From Bryobacterales bacterium (GTDB taxonomy: Bacteria > Acidobacteriota > Terriglobia > Bryobacterales > Bryobacteraceae), in assembly GCA_003164035.1 (NCBI GenBank), contig PLRS01000141.1, positions 1 to 64,000 on the forward strand: a DNA stretch of 64,000 nt. Reading direction: 5' to 3'. Below the pieces are notes generated by a model. That model was not told the DNA's origin. It was given only the letters and a program-made list of their open reading frames with translations, and did no database searches. Below are positions 52,081 through 62,598 of this stretch, piece by piece (the first letter of the stretch is position 1; each line of letters starts with the position of its first letter). Made by a program: the position numbers and the translations under genes.

Positions 52081-52260
52081 AAGGAACAGCTTTCGGCCAT
52101 ACGATAACGGGGGAGCGGGGAAAAGGCGGGGTGCCGGGAGGGGCGAAGTGTCTGTAACCAACTGGAGCGGGAGGAGTAAGAAATATTTTGAAGTTCTGTG
52201 ACCGGGAGCCGGAGAACAGACCGGCGGGGCTACGTTTTGTGCATTTTTGTGCACGACGCA
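52081..52260 (-). promoter_or_regulatory. Conserved leader upstream of the truncated HTH family gene
   Basis: On the minus strand the region has CGTTATCGTATGGCC just before the ATG and CGGTCACAGAACTTCAAAAT about 115 nt further up. Beyond it lies TGTGCACAAAAATGCACAAA (52232-52251), also found as TGTGCATTTTTGTGCA at 13004-13019. All three parts have counterparts by the gene at 12963-13385. The remaining region to 52396 has no gene. Confidence 0.45.
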
Positions 52261-52396
52261 CAAGGATACGGGCGAGGGACGGCGCCACTGTCCAATTTCG
52301 GACAGTCAAATCCTAAAACAAGGCAGTTTCAACTTGGGCGAGGCGTGGATTCAACGGCTTACGCCTGGCCTGGCGATTGCAGGATGGGTCCATACC

Positions 52397-54850
52397 ATGC
52401 GCGCCATCTGGCAAGATCTCCGATTCGGCCTGCGGATATGGCATCACAGCCCGGGCTTCACCGTAGCGGCGGTGCTGACGCTAGCGGTGGGCATCGCGAT
52501 GAACGCGACTGTCTTCAGTTGGATCGATTCGGTGCTGCTGCATCCTCTGCCTGGAGTGGGCGATGCGCGGGACCTGGCGCTGCTGGAAACGGTGACCTCC
52601 GGCGGAGAGCATCTGGTCAATACTTCCTATATTGACTGCCGCGACTACGGGCGGGACCTGCGGCTGATCTCAGAGCTGGCATTCGGCCGCTTCACCCCGC
52701 TGAGCGTTGGGGCGGAGGGCAAGACCGGGCGCGCCTGGGCCGAGCTGGTGTCGGCGAATTACTTCGACGTGCTCCAGGTGAAACCTGTGCTGGGGCGCGG
52801 GTTCCGCGTCGAGGAGGCGCAACGGCCGGGGGCGGAACCGGTCGCGGTGATCAGTTATCGGATGTGGCGGGACCGGTATTCCGGCGACCCCAGAGTGCTG
52901 GGAGAAGCGATCCGGCTGAACCGCCGGGACCTGACGATTGTCGGTGTGGCGCCGCCGGGGTTTCACGGCAGCATGGTGGGCGTGCTCTACGACGTCTGGG
53001 TTCCGATCACCATGGCGGAGGCGATGGGAACCGGCAACGGGACTTTGAACTATCGCGGGACTCGCGACATTACCTCAACGTTCGTGCGCTTGAAACCGGG
53101 GGCCAGTCTGGAGCAGGGGCGGGAAGAGGTGGCCGCGTTGGCGCGGCGGCTGGCGGCGGCGTATCCCGGCACCAACCGGGGTATCGAGGCGACGCTGGTG
53201 CCGGTGTGGGCCGGGCACCTGGGTGCGCAGGGCATTCTGCTGCGGCCGCTGACGATTCTGATGGCGATGGCCGTTCTGCTGCTGCTGATGGCATGCGCCA
53301 ACGTAGCAAACCTGTTCCTTGCGAGGGCGGTTTCGCGGCAGAAGGAATTCGGCCTGCGGCTGGCGCTGGGTGCGCGGCGCAGTCGCCTGGCGGGGCAGTT
53401 ATTTGCCGAGACCCTATTGATTGCGGGCGCGGGCGGCGCGGCTGGGTTGGTTCTGACAGCGTGGATGGGACCGGTTCTGCAGTTTCTGCTTCCACCGATG
53501 GATATTCCGCTCGATTTTGGGGGTGGGCTGAACCTTACCACGGCCGGTTTCACGCTGCTGATGGTGGCAGCGGCGATGCTGCTCAGCGGCACGGCGCCGG
53601 CGCTGTTTTCGGTTCGGGCGGACCTGAACAGCACGCTGAAAGAAGGTGGGCGCGGGGGAAGCTCCGACGGCGGGTCCCATGGTTGGCGGCGATTACTGGC
53701 AACCATCCAGGTGGCGCTAGCCATGGTGGCGCTGACCGGCGCGGCCCTTTTTTCGCGGAGTTTCCGCGGCATTATGGACATCCAGCCGGGCTTTAACATG
53801 GATCGTGTATCGGTGTCGCAATTCTACCTGTCGAGCGCGGGATACTCGGCGGTGGAGCAGCGCCAGTTCTGCCGGGAACTGCGCCGGAGGCTGGAAGCGC
53901 AGCCGGGAGTGACGGGTGTGACGTACTCGGACGTGGTGCCGCTTGGTTCGGCGGCGGGGTCGGCTCCGTGGCATCAACTGGCGATCGAAGGATACGTACC
54001 GGAGCGGAACGAACAAGTGATTGTGCACCGTGCCACGGTGCCGCCGGGCTATTTCGAGTTCATGAAGATCCGCCGGCTGGCGGGGCGCGAGTTCAGCGAA
54101 GACGACAACAAAGACAAGCCGATGGCGATGATCGTGAACCAGGCGTTCGCGGCGCACTATTTCCGCGGCCGGTCCGTGGTGGGCCGCAAAGTGATGGTGG
54201 AAGGCGCGGCGGCCACGGTAGTCGGGTTGGTGCAGGACAGCAAATACAACACGCTGGCCGAGGGGCCGACGCCGTTTTTCTACCTGCCGTTCCAGCAGTG
54301 GTTCGCGCCCGGGCTGAATTTCGCCGTGTTCCTTCGTGCGGCGGGCGATCCGATGCGGGTCACGCCGGTGCTGCGCCGGGAGGCGCTGGCGCTCAACCAG
54401 GATGCGGTGTTCAACACGCGCCTGCTGGCCGAAGAAGCCACGGTATCTCTCTATCCCCAGAGGGTGGCGGCGAATCTGTTGGCGGTGGTGGGAGGCGCGT
54501 GCCTGCTGCTGGCGGCGATCGGGTTGTACAGCGTGATGAGTTACACGGTGAGCCAGCGCACGCGGGAGTTAGGCATCCGGGTAGCGCTGGGAGCGCAGCC
54601 GGCCACAATACGTTGGATGGTTCTGCGGGAGGGCCTGCTTTTGACAGTTCCCGGGCTGGCGGCGGGGTTTGGGATTGCGGTGCTGGCCGGCCGCCTGGTG
54701 AGCGGCATGCTGGTGACGGTGAGCGCGGTTGACCCGGCAGCTTTCGGCGCCGCGGCGTTGTTTGTGGCGGGGGTTGCGCTCGCCGCAAGCTACCTGCCGG
54801 CGAGCCGCGCCACCAGGGTAGACCCGGTACAGGTGCTCAATCGGGAGTAA
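52397..54850 (+). CDS. MacB/FtsX-type ABC permease without ATPase (acidobacterial orphan permease)
   Basis: The ATG at 52397 gives 817 residues; the frame extends upstream to 52247 without support. It begins MRAIWQDLRFGLRIWHHSPG, then TM1 and a MacB periplasmic core domain ('YIDCRDYGRDLRLISELAFG'). FtsX-type TM bundles follow ('LLMACANVANLFLARAVSRQ', KEFGLRLALGARRSRLAGQL), repeated in a second half ending ASYLPASRATRVDPVQVLNRE. The double FtsX layout is typical of acidobacterial permeases that lack an adjacent ATPase. It likely moves lipoproteins, peptides or toxic molecules. No MacA or ATPase is nearby. Confidence 0.9.
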   Translation: MRAIWQDLRFGLRIWHHSPGFTVAAVLTLAVGIAMNATVFSWIDSVLLHPLPGVGDARDLALLETVTSGGEHLVNTSYIDCRDYGRDLRLISELAFGRFTPLSVGAEGKTGRAWAELVSANYFDVLQVKPVLGRGFRVEEAQRPGAEPVAVISYRMWRDRYSGDPRVLGEAIRLNRRDLTIVGVAPPGFHGSMVGVLYDVWVPITMAEAMGTGNGTLNYRGTRDITSTFVRLKPGASLEQGREEVAALARRLAAAYPGTNRGIEATLVPVWAGHLGAQGILLRPLTILMAMAVLLLLMACANVANLFLARAVSRQKEFGLRLALGARRSRLAGQLFAETLLIAGAGGAAGLVLTAWMGPVLQFLLPPMDIPLDFGGGLNLTTAGFTLLMVAAAMLLSGTAPALFSVRADLNSTLKEGGRGGSSDGGSHGWRRLLATIQVALAMVALTGAALFSRSFRGIMDIQPGFNMDRVSVSQFYLSSAGYSAVEQRQFCRELRRRLEAQPGVTGVTYSDVVPLGSAAGSAPWHQLAIEGYVPERNEQVIVHRATVPPGYFEFMKIRRLAGREFSEDDNKDKPMAMIVNQAFAAHYFRGRSVVGRKVMVEGAAATVVGLVQDSKYNTLAEGPTPFFYLPFQQWFAPGLNFAVFLRAAGDPMRVTPVLRREALALNQDAVFNTRLLAEEATVSLYPQRVAANLLAVVGGACLLLAAIGLYSVMSYTVSQRTRELGIRVALGAQPATIRWMVLREGLLLTVPGLAAGFGIAVLAGRLVSGMLVTVSAVDPAAFGAAALFVAGVALAASYLPASRATRVDPVQVLNRE

Positions 54851-55140
54851 GCGGGCAGCCGGCCGAGGCAGTACCAACTGCTTTTCCCAACATCGGGATT
54901 GCCACGGAGCGACAAGCGGAACCGAGGAGACCGGCGACAAGATCGCCGGCGCTACGAGGTTGGACCGGACCGGCGCCGCTGGCAGGCTGAGTTTCCCGGG
55001 CGGCGCGGAACGTCGGCTCGACAGCCGACGCCGCAGGCCAGCGGCCCGCGCCACGAGCACGACGAGCACGTTTCCGGGTAGCAACATTCGGGCGCGATAG
55101 GCGATACTGATTATTGCTTCGGCAGGGTGGAGAATATCCT
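54851..55140. other. Intergenic spacer with GC-rich repeats
   Basis: About 290 bp with short palindromes such as GGCGACAAGATCGCCGGCGC and CGTCGGCTCGACAGCCGACG, of the type that recurs in the genome. No gene was recognised. Confidence 0.45.
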
Positions 55141-56169
55141 TTGAAGAAAGCTCTGATTACGGGGATCACCGGCCAGGACGGATCGTTTCTGACCGAGTTT
55201 CTACTGGACAAGGGTTACCAGGTGCACGGGATTGTGCGCCGCGCATCCACTTTCAATACGGACCGGATACGGCACCTGTACCACGATCCGCACGATCCGG
55301 AAACGCGTCTGTTTCTACATTACGGCGATGTGACGGACGCGTCGGGACTGCGGCACGTACTGGAGAAAGTGCAGCCGGACGAAATCTACAACCTGGCCGC
55401 GCAGTCGCATGTGCGGGTGAGTTTCGACCAGTCCGAGTACACGGCGGACGTCGTGGCGACCGGGGCACTGCGGGTGCTGGAGGCGCTGCGGCATCACGTG
55501 CATGAGTCGGGACGAGCGGTGCGGTATTACCAGGCGGGGTCGTCGGAGATGTTCGGGGCGGCGCCGCCGCCGCAGAGCGAAGGGACCGCGTTTTATCCGC
55601 GCAGTCCGTACGCCGTGGCCAAGGTGGCGGCCCACTGGTACGGAGTGAACTACCGCGAGGCGTACGGGTTGTTCGTGGCGAACGGGATTCTGTTCAACCA
55701 CGAATCGGAGCGGCGCGGGGAAACCTTCGTGACGCGCAAGATCACGCGTTCGCTGGGGCGGATCAAGTTGGGGTTGATGGACAAGTTCTATCTGGGGAAC
55801 CTGGAGTCCCGGCGGGATTGGGGATACGCGGGCGATTACGTGGAAGCCATGTGGCTGATGTTGCAGCAGGAGGCGGCGGGCGATTACGTGGTGGCGACGG
55901 GCGAAGCGCACTCGGTGAAGGAGTTTCTGGAATTAGCGGCGGAATACGCGGGCGTGGACTGGACCAAGTGCGTCGGCACCGATCCCCGTTATTTCCGGCC
56001 GACGGAAGTGGACAGCCTGTGCGGGGACTCGTCGCGGGCGCGGGCCAAGCTGGGGTGGAAGCCGAAGGTGAGCTTTCCGGAGTTGGTTCGCAAGATGGTG
56101 GATTGCGACATGGAACTGGCGCGGCGGGAACGGACGCTGCTGGCGGCCGGGCACGCGGTGCATATATAG
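55141..56169 (+). CDS. gmd: GDP-mannose 4,6-dehydratase
   Basis: The TTG at 55141 follows GGTGGAG by 7 nt and gives about 342 residues. It has NAD(P)-binding [31 protein letters not shown], the catalytic GSSEMFG, YAVAK (Tyr and Lys) and [20 protein letters not shown], all GMD signatures. It converts GDP-mannose to GDP-4-keto-6-deoxymannose. It is followed by fcl, so GDP-L-fucose is made. Surface glycan assembly and the Wzt/Wzm pair are the likely users. A start at 55114 is possible but lacks a ribosome site. Confidence 0.95.
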
Positions 56170-56252: not shown

Positions 56253-57188
56253 ATGGAGCAGACAAGCAAGATCTTCGTGGCGGGACATCGCGGGCTGGTG
56301 GGGTCGGCCATTTGCCGGCGTCTGGACGCGGGTGGATTCAGCAACCTGCTGGTTCGGACTCATGGCGAAGTGGACCTGTCGGATGCCCGCGCGGCGGAGG
56401 CGTTGTTTTCGACGGAAAAGCCCGAATACGTTTTTCTGGCGGCGGCCAGGGTGGGCGGCATCCTGGCGAATTCCAGCCGTCCGGTGGATTTTCTGCGCGA
56501 TAACCTGCTGATGGAGACCTCGGTTCTGGACGCGGCCTGGCGCCATGGGGTGAAGAAAGTGCTTTGCCTCGGGTCGTCCTGCATTTATCCGAAATTCGCA
56601 CCGCAACCGATCCGGGAAGACAGCCTTCTGAGCGGGCCGCTCGAGCCCACCAACGAGTGGTACGCCATCGCCAAAATCGCCGGGATCAAGCTGGCGCAAG
56701 CCTATCACCGGCAGTACGGCATGGAGGCCATCTCGCTGATGCCGACCAATCTGTACGGGCCGGGCGATAACTTCGACCTGCAGACATCGCACGTGGTGCC
56801 GGCGCTGCTGCGAAAATTCCACGAAGCGGTGGAGAGCGGGGCGCCGGAGGTGACGTTGTGGGGCAGTGGGTCGCCGCGGCGGGAGTTCCTGCACGTGGAC
56901 GATCTTGCCGACGCGGCGGTGTTCCTGATGGAGTGCTACTCGAGCCCGGAGATCGTCAACGTCGGGGTAGGCGAGGACCTGACGATTCTGGAGCTGGCGG
57001 AAATGATCGGAGAGATCACCGGATTTCGCGGCAAGCTGCGCTTCGACAGTTCGAAGCCGGACGGAACACCGCGCAAACTGCTGGACGTGTCCCGGCTGAC
57101 GGCTCTGGGCTGGAAAGCGCGCATTCCGCTGCGCGAGGGCATCCGGCAGACGTACGAGTGGTACAAGCGGAACCGAAGGGCCGGTTGA
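56253..57188 (+). CDS. fcl: GDP-L-fucose synthase
   Basis: The 311-residue protein has the NADP-binding IFVAGHRGLVGSAICRRL, AARVGGILANSS, the active-site GSSCIYP and YAIAK, and MPTNLYGPGDNFDLQTSHVV, all typical of Fcl/GMER. It epimerises and reduces GDP-4-keto-6-deoxymannose to GDP-L-fucose. It is directly downstream of gmd. The product probably enters extracellular polysaccharide. Confidence 0.96.
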   Translation: MEQTSKIFVAGHRGLVGSAICRRLDAGGFSNLLVRTHGEVDLSDARAAEALFSTEKPEYVFLAAARVGGILANSSRPVDFLRDNLLMETSVLDAAWRHGVKKVLCLGSSCIYPKFAPQPIREDSLLSGPLEPTNEWYAIAKIAGIKLAQAYHRQYGMEAISLMPTNLYGPGDNFDLQTSHVVPALLRKFHEAVESGAPEVTLWGSGSPRREFLHVDDLADAAVFLMECYSSPEIVNVGVGEDLTILELAEMIGEITGFRGKLRFDSSKPDGTPRKLLDVSRLTALGWKARIPLREGIRQTYEWYKRNRRAG

Positions 57189-57203: not shown

Positions 57204-58559
57204 CTACGCCACGAGGTACCTCTGCTTCACCCATTCGAGGGCTTCGGCGGCGGTGACCAGGCGGCCCTCCAGTTGGGCGTCTTCCACCGCGTCCAGAATC
57301 CCGGCGAAGCGGGGGCCGGGAGCGTAGCCGGCGGCGATCAGGTCGGCACCGGTGAGGAGGCGCTTCGGTTTCAACTGTTCCGTGCCTAGCTCGGCCAGGC
57401 GCCGGCGGCAGAATTCCCAGCCATCCAGATGGCCGTTACTGCCGAGACAATCCAGGCGATGGAGCTCCAGATGCTGGTCGAAGTTCGGCTGGCGGAGGAA
57501 GCGTTTGAGCGTGCTCTGTTTCATCCGCCCCACATCGAGAAAGCGCATGTGGTTGGCGACCAGCGCCTCCACCTGTTCGATTTGGTCGCGGGAAGCGCGC
57601 AGGCGGGCGAGGATTACGCGGGCCAGCCGGACGCCTTCCTCGGCGTGGCCATCGAAACGAATGCGATCGGCCACGCGAAACGTGGGCGGCTTGCCGACGT
57701 CGTGCAGCAGCGCGGCCCAGGCTAAAGCGGGGCTGGCGTCTTTCAGGTTTTCGAGCAGGAGCAGGGTGTGGGTCCAGACATCGCCTTCGGGATGGAACTC
57801 GGGCGGCTGGGCCACGCCTTTCATGGCGGCCACTTCCGGCAGCAGAACGGCCAGCATGCCGCTGGCGTCCAGCAGCTCGAAGCCGCGGCGCGCGCCGCCT
57901 TGGGTCAGGATCCGTTCCAGCTCGTCGCGCACGCGCTCCGGCGCCACGGTCAGGATGGAGGCGGGATGGCGCTCGATCGCCCTCCAGGTTTCGGGATCGA
58001 TCTGGAAACCCAGGCGGGCCGCGAACCGCACGGCGCGGAGAAGGCGCAAATGGTCTTCCGCGAAACGCGCCTCCGGGTCGCCGATGGCCCGCAGCGTGCG
58101 GCTTTCCAGGTCGCGGCGCCCTTCCACGAAATCCAGCACCTGGCCGGTTTCCAGGTCCATCATGAGGCCATTGATGGTGAAGTCGCGCCGCAGTACATCG
58201 GCACGCGGATCGATTTGGAAATCGACCGAGGTGGGGCGCCGGCCGTCGGCATATTCGCGGTCGCTGCGAAAGGTAGCGACTTCCACCTGCGCGGCGCCGT
58301 CCCGCACCAGCACCACGCCGAAGTGCGCGCCCACCGTTCCCGAACCGGGGAACAGATTCAGCAGGCGCTCGGGGCGCGCGTCGGTGGAAATGTCGAAATC
58401 CTTAGGTGGAACGCCAAGCAGCAGGTCGCGCACGGAGCCGCCCACCAGGTAGGCGTGGTGCCCGGCGGCACGCAGGCGAGAAGCGACGGACCGCGCCAGC
58501 CGTTCGGAATCCAGGTTGGTCGGGTTCCGCTCCACACTACCGATGGTACCCTGCCGCAC
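57204..58559 (-). CDS. cca: CCA-adding tRNA nucleotidyltransferase with HD domain
   Basis: A 451-residue protein from a GTG at 58559. It has GGSVRDLLLGVPPKDFDIST (nucleotidyltransferase with the DxD metal ligands), FRSDREYADGRRP, RRDFTINGLMMD, a neck region and the HD phosphohydrolase motif WAALLHDVGKPPTF. It repairs or adds the CCA end of tRNA, or acts as a poly(A)/A-adding enzyme in split systems. Both tRNAs in the window already encode CCA, so a repair role is likely. It is convergent with fcl. Confidence 0.93.
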   Translation of the reverse strand: MRQGTIGSVERNPTNLDSERLARSVASRLRAAGHHAYLVGGSVRDLLLGVPPKDFDISTDARPERLLNLFPGSGTVGAHFGVVLVRDGAAQVEVATFRSDREYADGRRPTSVDFQIDPRADVLRRDFTINGLMMDLETGQVLDFVEGRRDLESRTLRAIGDPEARFAEDHLRLLRAVRFAARLGFQIDPETWRAIERHPASILTVAPERVRDELERILTQGGARRGFELLDASGMLAVLLPEVAAMKGVAQPPEFHPEGDVWTHTLLLLENLKDASPALAWAALLHDVGKPPTFRVADRIRFDGHAEEGVRLARVILARLRASRDQIEQVEALVANHMRFLDVGRMKQSTLKRFLRQPNFDQHLELHRLDCLGSNGHLDGWEFCRRRLAELGTEQLKPKRLLTGADLIAAGYAPGPRFAGILDAVEDAQLEGRLVTAAEALEWVKQRYLVA

Positions 58560-61366: not shown

Positions 61367-61383
61367 GACGTTGGGAGTTTAAG

Positions 61384-62598
61384 ATGACCGTTTCCGGCCG
61401 CATTCGATGGATTCCCGTATTGCTTGGCTGCCTGGGTGTGTCTCTGATCCTGGTTATCTATCCGATCTATGTGATCCGGCCATTCCGGGCGCAGGGAGCG
61501 AGGGAACTGGCGGTGGCGCTGATGATTAGCCGCTTTCGGCCGGGGCTTACGGTGATCTCGGCGCTGGCGGCGGTCTGGGCTGCAATTCGGTATCGCGGGC
61601 GCTGGTGGCGGCGGACACTGGCAGCGGCGGGCGCGGTCTTGGTGTGCGCGCTGGCGGCGCTGGCGCGGGTAAACGTGTACGAGCTGATGTTCCACCCGGA
61701 CGACCATCCGGCCTTCGCCGCGGCGAGTGAAGCGAAGCTCGATAAGGATGACAAGCTGATCGTGGTGAACGTCCGCGGCAGCGCGCGTGCGTACCCGATC
61801 CGCACCATGGGTTACCACCATGTCATTAATGACGTGGTCGGAGGGACGGCTCTCGCGGCGACCTATTGAACGCTCTGTCACACCGGTCTGGTGTGGACGA
61901 GAGATGTGGACGGGCTGCGGCTGACGTTTCACCTGGCCGGCATCAATAACCAGAATTTTCTGATGCGCGACGACCAGACGGGGACCTATTGGCAGCAGAT
62001 CAGCGGACTGGCTATTTCGGGCCCGCTGAAAGGGCGGCAACTCACACTGGTTCACTCCGATGAGCTGACCTTCGCGACGTGGAAAGCGGAGGAGCCGGAA
62101 GGCACGGTGCTGCGGGACGTGGCCAGGTACGCCCCCCAATACGAGAAGAAAGATTGGGACGTGCGCATGAAGCGGGCGCCGGTGGTCATCCAGTTTCCGG
62201 AAGCGGGCATGAAGGCGCGCGAGCTGCTGCTGGGCATCCAGGCTTTCGGCGCCAGCCGGGCGTTTCTCTACGACCGGGTGATTCAGGAGAAGCTGGTGAA
62301 GGACCACGTGGGGGCCGAGCCGGTGCTGCTGGTGGTGGGCGGGGACGGGGAATCGGTGAGAGGTTTCCGCGACCGAATCCCCGGTGTGGATGGTGCACCG
62401 GATTTCTACCGCATGACCGCGAACACGGCCGGCACGCTGCTGATGGATGCGGCAACCGGCAGCGAGTGGAGCTTCCAGGGGTGCGCCGTGTCGGGGAAAG
62501 CGAAGGGCATTTGCCTGGAACCTGTCCCCATGCTCAAAGACTATTGGTTCGACTGGCGGAACTATAATCCCAAGACGACGATTTGGGGGAAAAGATAG
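61384..62598 (+). CDS. DUF3179-type membrane-linked protein, probable selenoprotein (Sec at residue 162)
   Basis: The ATG at 61384 has GGGAG 6 nt upstream. Three TM helices (about 8-28, 40-62 and 75-95) precede a DUF3179 domain ('LIVVNVRGSARAYPIRTMGY', HHVINDVVGGTALAATY). The codon at 61867-61869 is TGA, then TLCHTG, so the protein reads TY-Sec-TLCHTG where relatives have TYCxLCxTG. The same frame continues for 243 residues with family motifs ('DQTGTYWQQISGLAISGPLK', LVHSDELTFATWKAE, YDRVIQEKLV) and stops at 62598. A SECIS-like hairpin follows the TGA. Together this makes a UxxC redox selenoprotein of 404 residues. A nonsense mutation is the alternative, but the hairpin argues against it. Confidence 0.85.
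61873..61903 (+). promoter_or_regulatory. Candidate bacterial SECIS hairpin
   Basis: Nucleotides 61873-61884 (CTCTGTCACACC) pair with 61890-61903 (GGTGTGGACGAGAG) around a GGTCT apical loop. The stem has 12 base pairs with two single-G bulges at 61896 and 61899. The first loop G is 16 nt after the TGA, within the 16-37 nt window of bacterial SECIS. GGTCT is the loop sequence of the E. coli fdhF element. It codes for the protein as well (TLCHTGLVWTR). Confidence 0.8.

Follow-up and report, generated by a model that had tools for sequence, protein, structure and literature searches.

The DUF3179 family (PF11376) is already entered in the selenoprotein lists of two reviews (PMC9312934, PMC13188914) with the motif UxxC/T, and the first of these credits the DUF3179 selenoprotein to Zhang and Gladyshev 2007 (Olavius symbiont). 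The family is also listed in a table of a paper on electroactive Idiomarina. For Acidobacteria, a 2006 survey gives three selenoprotein families and four selenoproteins, and a 2025 paper reports three known selenoprotein genes in Occallatibacter riparius; DUF3179 may be among the selenoproteins counted there. A literature search found no account of an acidobacterial DUF3179 selenoprotein. The remark in the first-pass annotation that this family was not known as a selenoprotein is thus overtaken by the entries of the two reviews, and what is added here is the spread of the selenoprotein in Acidobacteriota, two hairpin registers, UxxA forms and Cys clades nested among Sec forms.

The gene under study lies in a 64,000-nucleotide stretch of Bryobacterales DNA, the whole of which is called the window. 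Set against the list entries of the reviews rather than example proteins (PMC9312934, PMC13188914), its product belongs to the same Pfam family and carries the same motif with Sec first, and differs by its acidobacterial origin, the two hairpin registers and the UxxA/D/V forms. The Cys-form DUF3179 proteins of genomes of the same class (family f11) are 44-49% identical to it over nearly the whole length and share the TLCHTG motif, but have TGC in place of TGA and relaxed codons over the hairpin. The SECIS elements of formate dehydrogenases such as fdhF likewise place a stem-loop with a G-rich loop right behind the UGA (model in PMC13188914), whereas the protein they serve is unrelated and the loop in the window sits near the lower end of the spacing range.

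Reading frame and predicted protein

On the plus strand, a frame of 404 codons (61384-62598) runs from an ATG at 61384-61386 to a TAG ending at 62598 and is open except for one in-frame TGA, codon 162, at 61867-61869. A GGGAG at 61373-61377, 6 nt before the ATG, is the probable ribosome-binding site, as had been proposed in the first-pass annotation. The further claim that DUF3179 motifs occur on both sides of the TGA was borne out by one Pfam match to PF11376 that spans codon 162, covering residues 107-398 (61702-62577) and profile positions 8-292 of 292 with an E value of 3.9e-60 and a score of 204.2 bits against a gathering score of 27. The same family is matched in all 49 rows of alignment A1, in which codon 162 (Sec read as Cys), Cys165 (61876-61878, the second residue of the U-x-x-C motif), His145, His146 and the AGINNQNF stretch are invariant, C367 and C377 being nearly so. 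The protein has a single match in its own genome (8.0 Mb, 169 contigs). No match was found among the 18950 models of NCBIfam or in PADLOC, and sequence and profile searches of the PDB gave no related chain at E up to 1.

The N-terminus has two clear hydrophobic segments, perhaps a third. Those at residues 13-31 (61420-61476, hydropathy 2.44) and 78-96 (61615-61671, hydropathy 2.06) are probable membrane helices, and the second is flanked by four positive charges at residues 70-78 and none at 97-107, which suggests a periplasmic domain. From hydropathy and charges together, the DUF3179 domain probably faces the periplasm.

The TGA column and the selenocysteine machinery

Homologues were collected with search patterns derived from the window protein, so that the set is biased to close relatives: 128 stretches matched a pattern, 108 of them encode a relative and the best 80 were kept, with titles naming Bryobacterales, Terriglobia, Acidobacteria and related groups. 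In 79 of these 80, codon 162 reads TGA, and the remaining one (L114) has TGC. Bryobacterales bacterium F-183 (L068, AP025252.1) is one of the strains with TGA here. Over the 107 loci of the 108 in which the column could be aligned, with some genomes represented twice through two collections, the counts are 97 TGA, 9 TGC and 1 TGT, and in a wider set of 166 homologues 130 TGA forms and 36 Cys forms were found, with no other residue at the column (L039 looks misaligned there). Among 20 distant matches picked for a listed TGA, 19 have it at the column, L182 having TGC. The proposed replacement of a Cys by TGA in a UxxC motif is upheld by the alignment at the Cys/Sec column. A gene broken by a nonsense mutation or an assembly error, as the splitting of the frame into two separate ORFs without Sec reading might suggest, is hardly conceivable and a sequencing error not credible, given the same TGA in nearly all of the 80 homologues from separate assemblies and a protein conserved on both sides of it.

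Absence of selC and selB had been named in the first-pass annotation as evidence against its reading; the opposite was found, as tRNA-Sec, SelB, SelA and SelD all score over their cut-offs in this genome. The tRNA-Sec gene (74.3 bits) is on the contig of the window, about 66 kb downstream, and ARAGORN also calls it tRNA-SeC with anticodon TCA; SelB scores 306.5 bits, rising to 341.1 when a second piece is added, SelA 491.3 and SelD 372.6. In 14 control genomes, the cut-offs were passed by tRNA-Sec in 5, SelB in 2, SelA in 1 (E. coli) and SelD in 2. A formate dehydrogenase as second selenoprotein was also looked for, and no Fdh-alpha over cut-off is present in this genome. Some of these results also bear on a general reassignment of TGA or a nonspecific readthrough inserting another residue, e.g. 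Trp, for which the frame being open through the TGA would speak. This explanation is very improbable, considering the presence of tRNA-Sec, a column that alternates with Cys only, and the use of TGA as stop codon by two neighbouring ORFs, of which one has Pfam matches.

In a scan of the phylum, 132 of 396 genomes gave a match, two thirds being without one at the threshold used. Co-occurrence was examined in every other genome whose listed match reached 259 bits, 31 in total, of which 21 have the TGA form and 10 the Cys form. SelA is over the cut-off in 21/21 genomes of the TGA form against 0/10 of the Cys form, and tRNA-Sec at E up to 1e-9 in 20/21 against 0/10, the one TGA-form genome without it (G312) being 88% complete. 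The family that contains the Cys forms also includes two genomes (G182 and G307) that keep TGA, SelA and tRNA-Sec. The Fisher value of 2.3e-8 overstates the case, because the 10 Cys genomes form a single clade; they come close to being one event.

A second set of 101 genomes of relatives says little on co-occurrence, since SelA is over the cut-off in 89 of them; it is so in 15 of 18 TGA-form genomes, a count that leaves out G090 (weak match). In two of the other three, G006 and G059, SelA is split into two pieces, and the best tRNA-Sec candidate of G006 reaches 46.6 bits, just under the cut-off of 47. The third, G030, whose 10.7 Mb assembly is 10% contaminated, shows a 71.2-bit tRNA-Sec, although no SelA passes the cut-off.

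A quick tree was built from 94 of the 166 rows, TGA forms of at least 40% identity being thinned to about 1 in 3 and rows under 130 residues dropped. On this tree the 10 Cys forms and a Cys paralogue (L184) make up one clade nested among TGA forms, and L114 is a second Cys branch. Over the whole tree 9 changes between Sec and Cys are needed, at least 7 by starred branches; their direction is a reading only, because the root was not inferred. One genome (G014) holds a TGA copy (L035) and a Cys copy (L184) of the close subfamily together.

Taken together, the Sec machinery of the genome, the conserved TGA and a Sec/Cys column that tracks the machinery support the selenoprotein reading of the first-pass annotation, and the gene very probably encodes a 404-residue DUF3179 selenoprotein in which UGA 162 would be read as selenocysteine.

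The hairpin behind the TGA

Folding gives a SECIS-like hairpin of -14.7 kcal/mol at 61873-61903 (plus strand). Its outer stem begins at the 4th nucleotide after the TGA (61873), and the hairpin has two one-base bulges on the 3' side, in agreement with the two small bulges and the 3 nt interval described in the first-pass annotation. Within it, a core at 61878-61896 pairs the arms 61878-61884 and 61890-61896 in seven pairs around the loop GGTCT (61885-61889), whose first base (61885) is the 16th nucleotide after the TGA, as also described. The loop of the fdhF SECIS is GGUCU. In the bacterial SECIS model given in the Fig. 2 legend of PMC13188914, the loop has 3-9 nt with G in the first two positions, the upper stem 4-16 pairs and the MFE is -7.5 or below; the window hairpin agrees with it in loop, upper stem (the seven-pair core) and energy. 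The model puts the spacing from UGA to loop at 16-37 nt, and the window, with 15 nt between and the first loop base at the 16th, is at its lower limit or one below.

By energy alone the window hairpin is unremarkable, hardly more than chance. Against dinucleotide shuffles its z value is -1.25 to -2.01, the best fold is a different one if 54 nt are folded instead of 39, and a comparable hairpin (-12 kcal/mol or below) follows 25 of the 1381 TGA triplets counted over the two strands of the window. Synonymous recodings were as stable in 5996 of 20000 cases and had the geometry set in 12225 of 20000, since the amino acid sequence all but imposes a hairpin. The energy was consequently rejected as proof of a SECIS. 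The loop and the seven-pair core are conserved and the outer stem is not; the hairpin on its own is weak evidence.

By conservation, on the other hand, the hairpin is beyond chance. In the window and its 80 homologues (81 sequences), the share of the commonest codon is 0.93 over the 8 conserved degenerate columns that immediately follow the TGA against 0.585 over 92 other conserved columns, the highest single share elsewhere being that of Tyr161 (0.95), directly before the TGA. This codon pattern is lost in the 10 Cys forms, as seen in Cys homologues with 44-47% identity, and in the TGC-bearing L114. Among non-redundant sequences (<40% identity), an unbroken stem of at least 7 pairs occurs in 20 of 23 TGA forms against 2 of 24 Cys forms. 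Means compared with synonymous recoding were 6.98 vs 5.79 in close and 7.13 vs 5.20 in distant TGA forms, and 5.33 vs 6.21 and 4.17 vs 4.49 respectively in Cys forms. Single stems fell under 5% in this test in 0/85 close and 3/23 distant TGA forms, and 9 of 95 close TGA homologues depart from the geometry set. The frequent success of recodings would be expected if the hairpin were a by-product of peptide and codon bias, with a different signal directing Sec; this is improbable given that TGA forms, unlike Cys forms, hold their synonymous codons fixed along the hairpin, and that distant TGA forms retain a stem of other sequence.

The loop is found in two registers. Of 108 non-redundant TGA-form sequences, 83 have it at +16 in their best stem and 19 at +21; by pairs, the first register (+16) fits 113 and the second (+21) 24 of the 130 TGA forms, 11 fitting both and 4 neither. 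Next to the loop, the 113 rows that fit +16 have a C-G pair 101 times and a G-C pair 12 times. Two members of the close subfamily (L112 and L116) have GGTCT at +21, that is, a hairpin 5 nt further downstream than in their close relatives, which constitutes a shifted SECIS register; on the quick tree the two do not group as sisters, so that one shift or two are both possible.

Under the selenoprotein reading, the hairpin with its GGUCU loop behind the UGA would recruit SelB carrying Sec-tRNA, in whose making SelA and SelD would help. This decoding scheme is suggested by the presence of its parts in the genome and by the conservation.

Possible role and meaning for the family

The surroundings of the gene name no substrate: among the 80 loci, no window ORF recurs besides the gene itself. 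Pfam assigns a MacB/FtsX permease (52247-54850, plus strand), a GDP-mannose dehydratase (55114-56169, plus), an epimerase (56253-57188, plus) and a poly(A) polymerase/tRNA nucleotidyltransferase (57204-58559, minus). A cluster common to 48 loci was discarded, being an antisense ORF of the gene itself and not a neighbour, and the other clusters are common to at most 16 loci, the window not among them. A long ORF upstream of the gene recurs in 16 of the 80 loci (L095-L110 region) and is absent from the window; its N-terminus, with the motif GFTLI, we take to be pilin-like.

The protein is more probably than otherwise a membrane-anchored selenol/thiol oxidoreductase with U-x-x-C as redox centre. 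Its main rival accepts the selenoprotein and would make Sec a metal ligand or a monothiol-like single selenol acting as nucleophile, instead of half of a redox pair. Such a role would fit the invariant His145 and His146 and the 11 of 130 TGA forms in which C165 is replaced (U-x-x-A in 9, U-x-x-D in 1, U-x-x-V in 1), but the residue is Cys in the other 119 TGA forms and in 33 of 36 Cys forms, and known prokaryotic selenoproteins are described as mostly redox proteins in PMC9312934, which leaves this alternative rather unlikely. The replaced forms are L171 and the distant TGA forms L168-L170, L172, L174, L178-L181 and L183, and they go beyond the UxxC/T listed in the reviews. For the oxidoreductase, Sec probably enhances a reaction of which Cys is capable as well, since relatives without Sec machinery have Cys at the same position.

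As a joint reading, which is put forward tentatively, the acidobacterial DUF3179 subfamily would be predominantly, perhaps ancestrally, a selenoprotein whose dependence on Sec contributes to retention of the Sec machinery, the loss of which goes with replacement by Cys. Its SECIS would occur in either of two registers (+16 or +21), offset by 5 nt, the GGTCT loop having moved between them within the family (L112, L116), and in the UxxA forms Sec would work without a resolving Cys.

Because gene callers stop at TGA and no NCBIfam model matches, a conserved soil-bacterial protein is easily annotated as two fragments. The two hairpin registers offer a handle on how SECIS elements move, and the pairing of Sec clades that have the Sec machinery with Cys clades that lack it is a clean natural experiment on what Sec contributes to a DUF3179 protein, the selenium form of which is found across a soil-bacterial phylum, tracking the presence of the selenium machinery.
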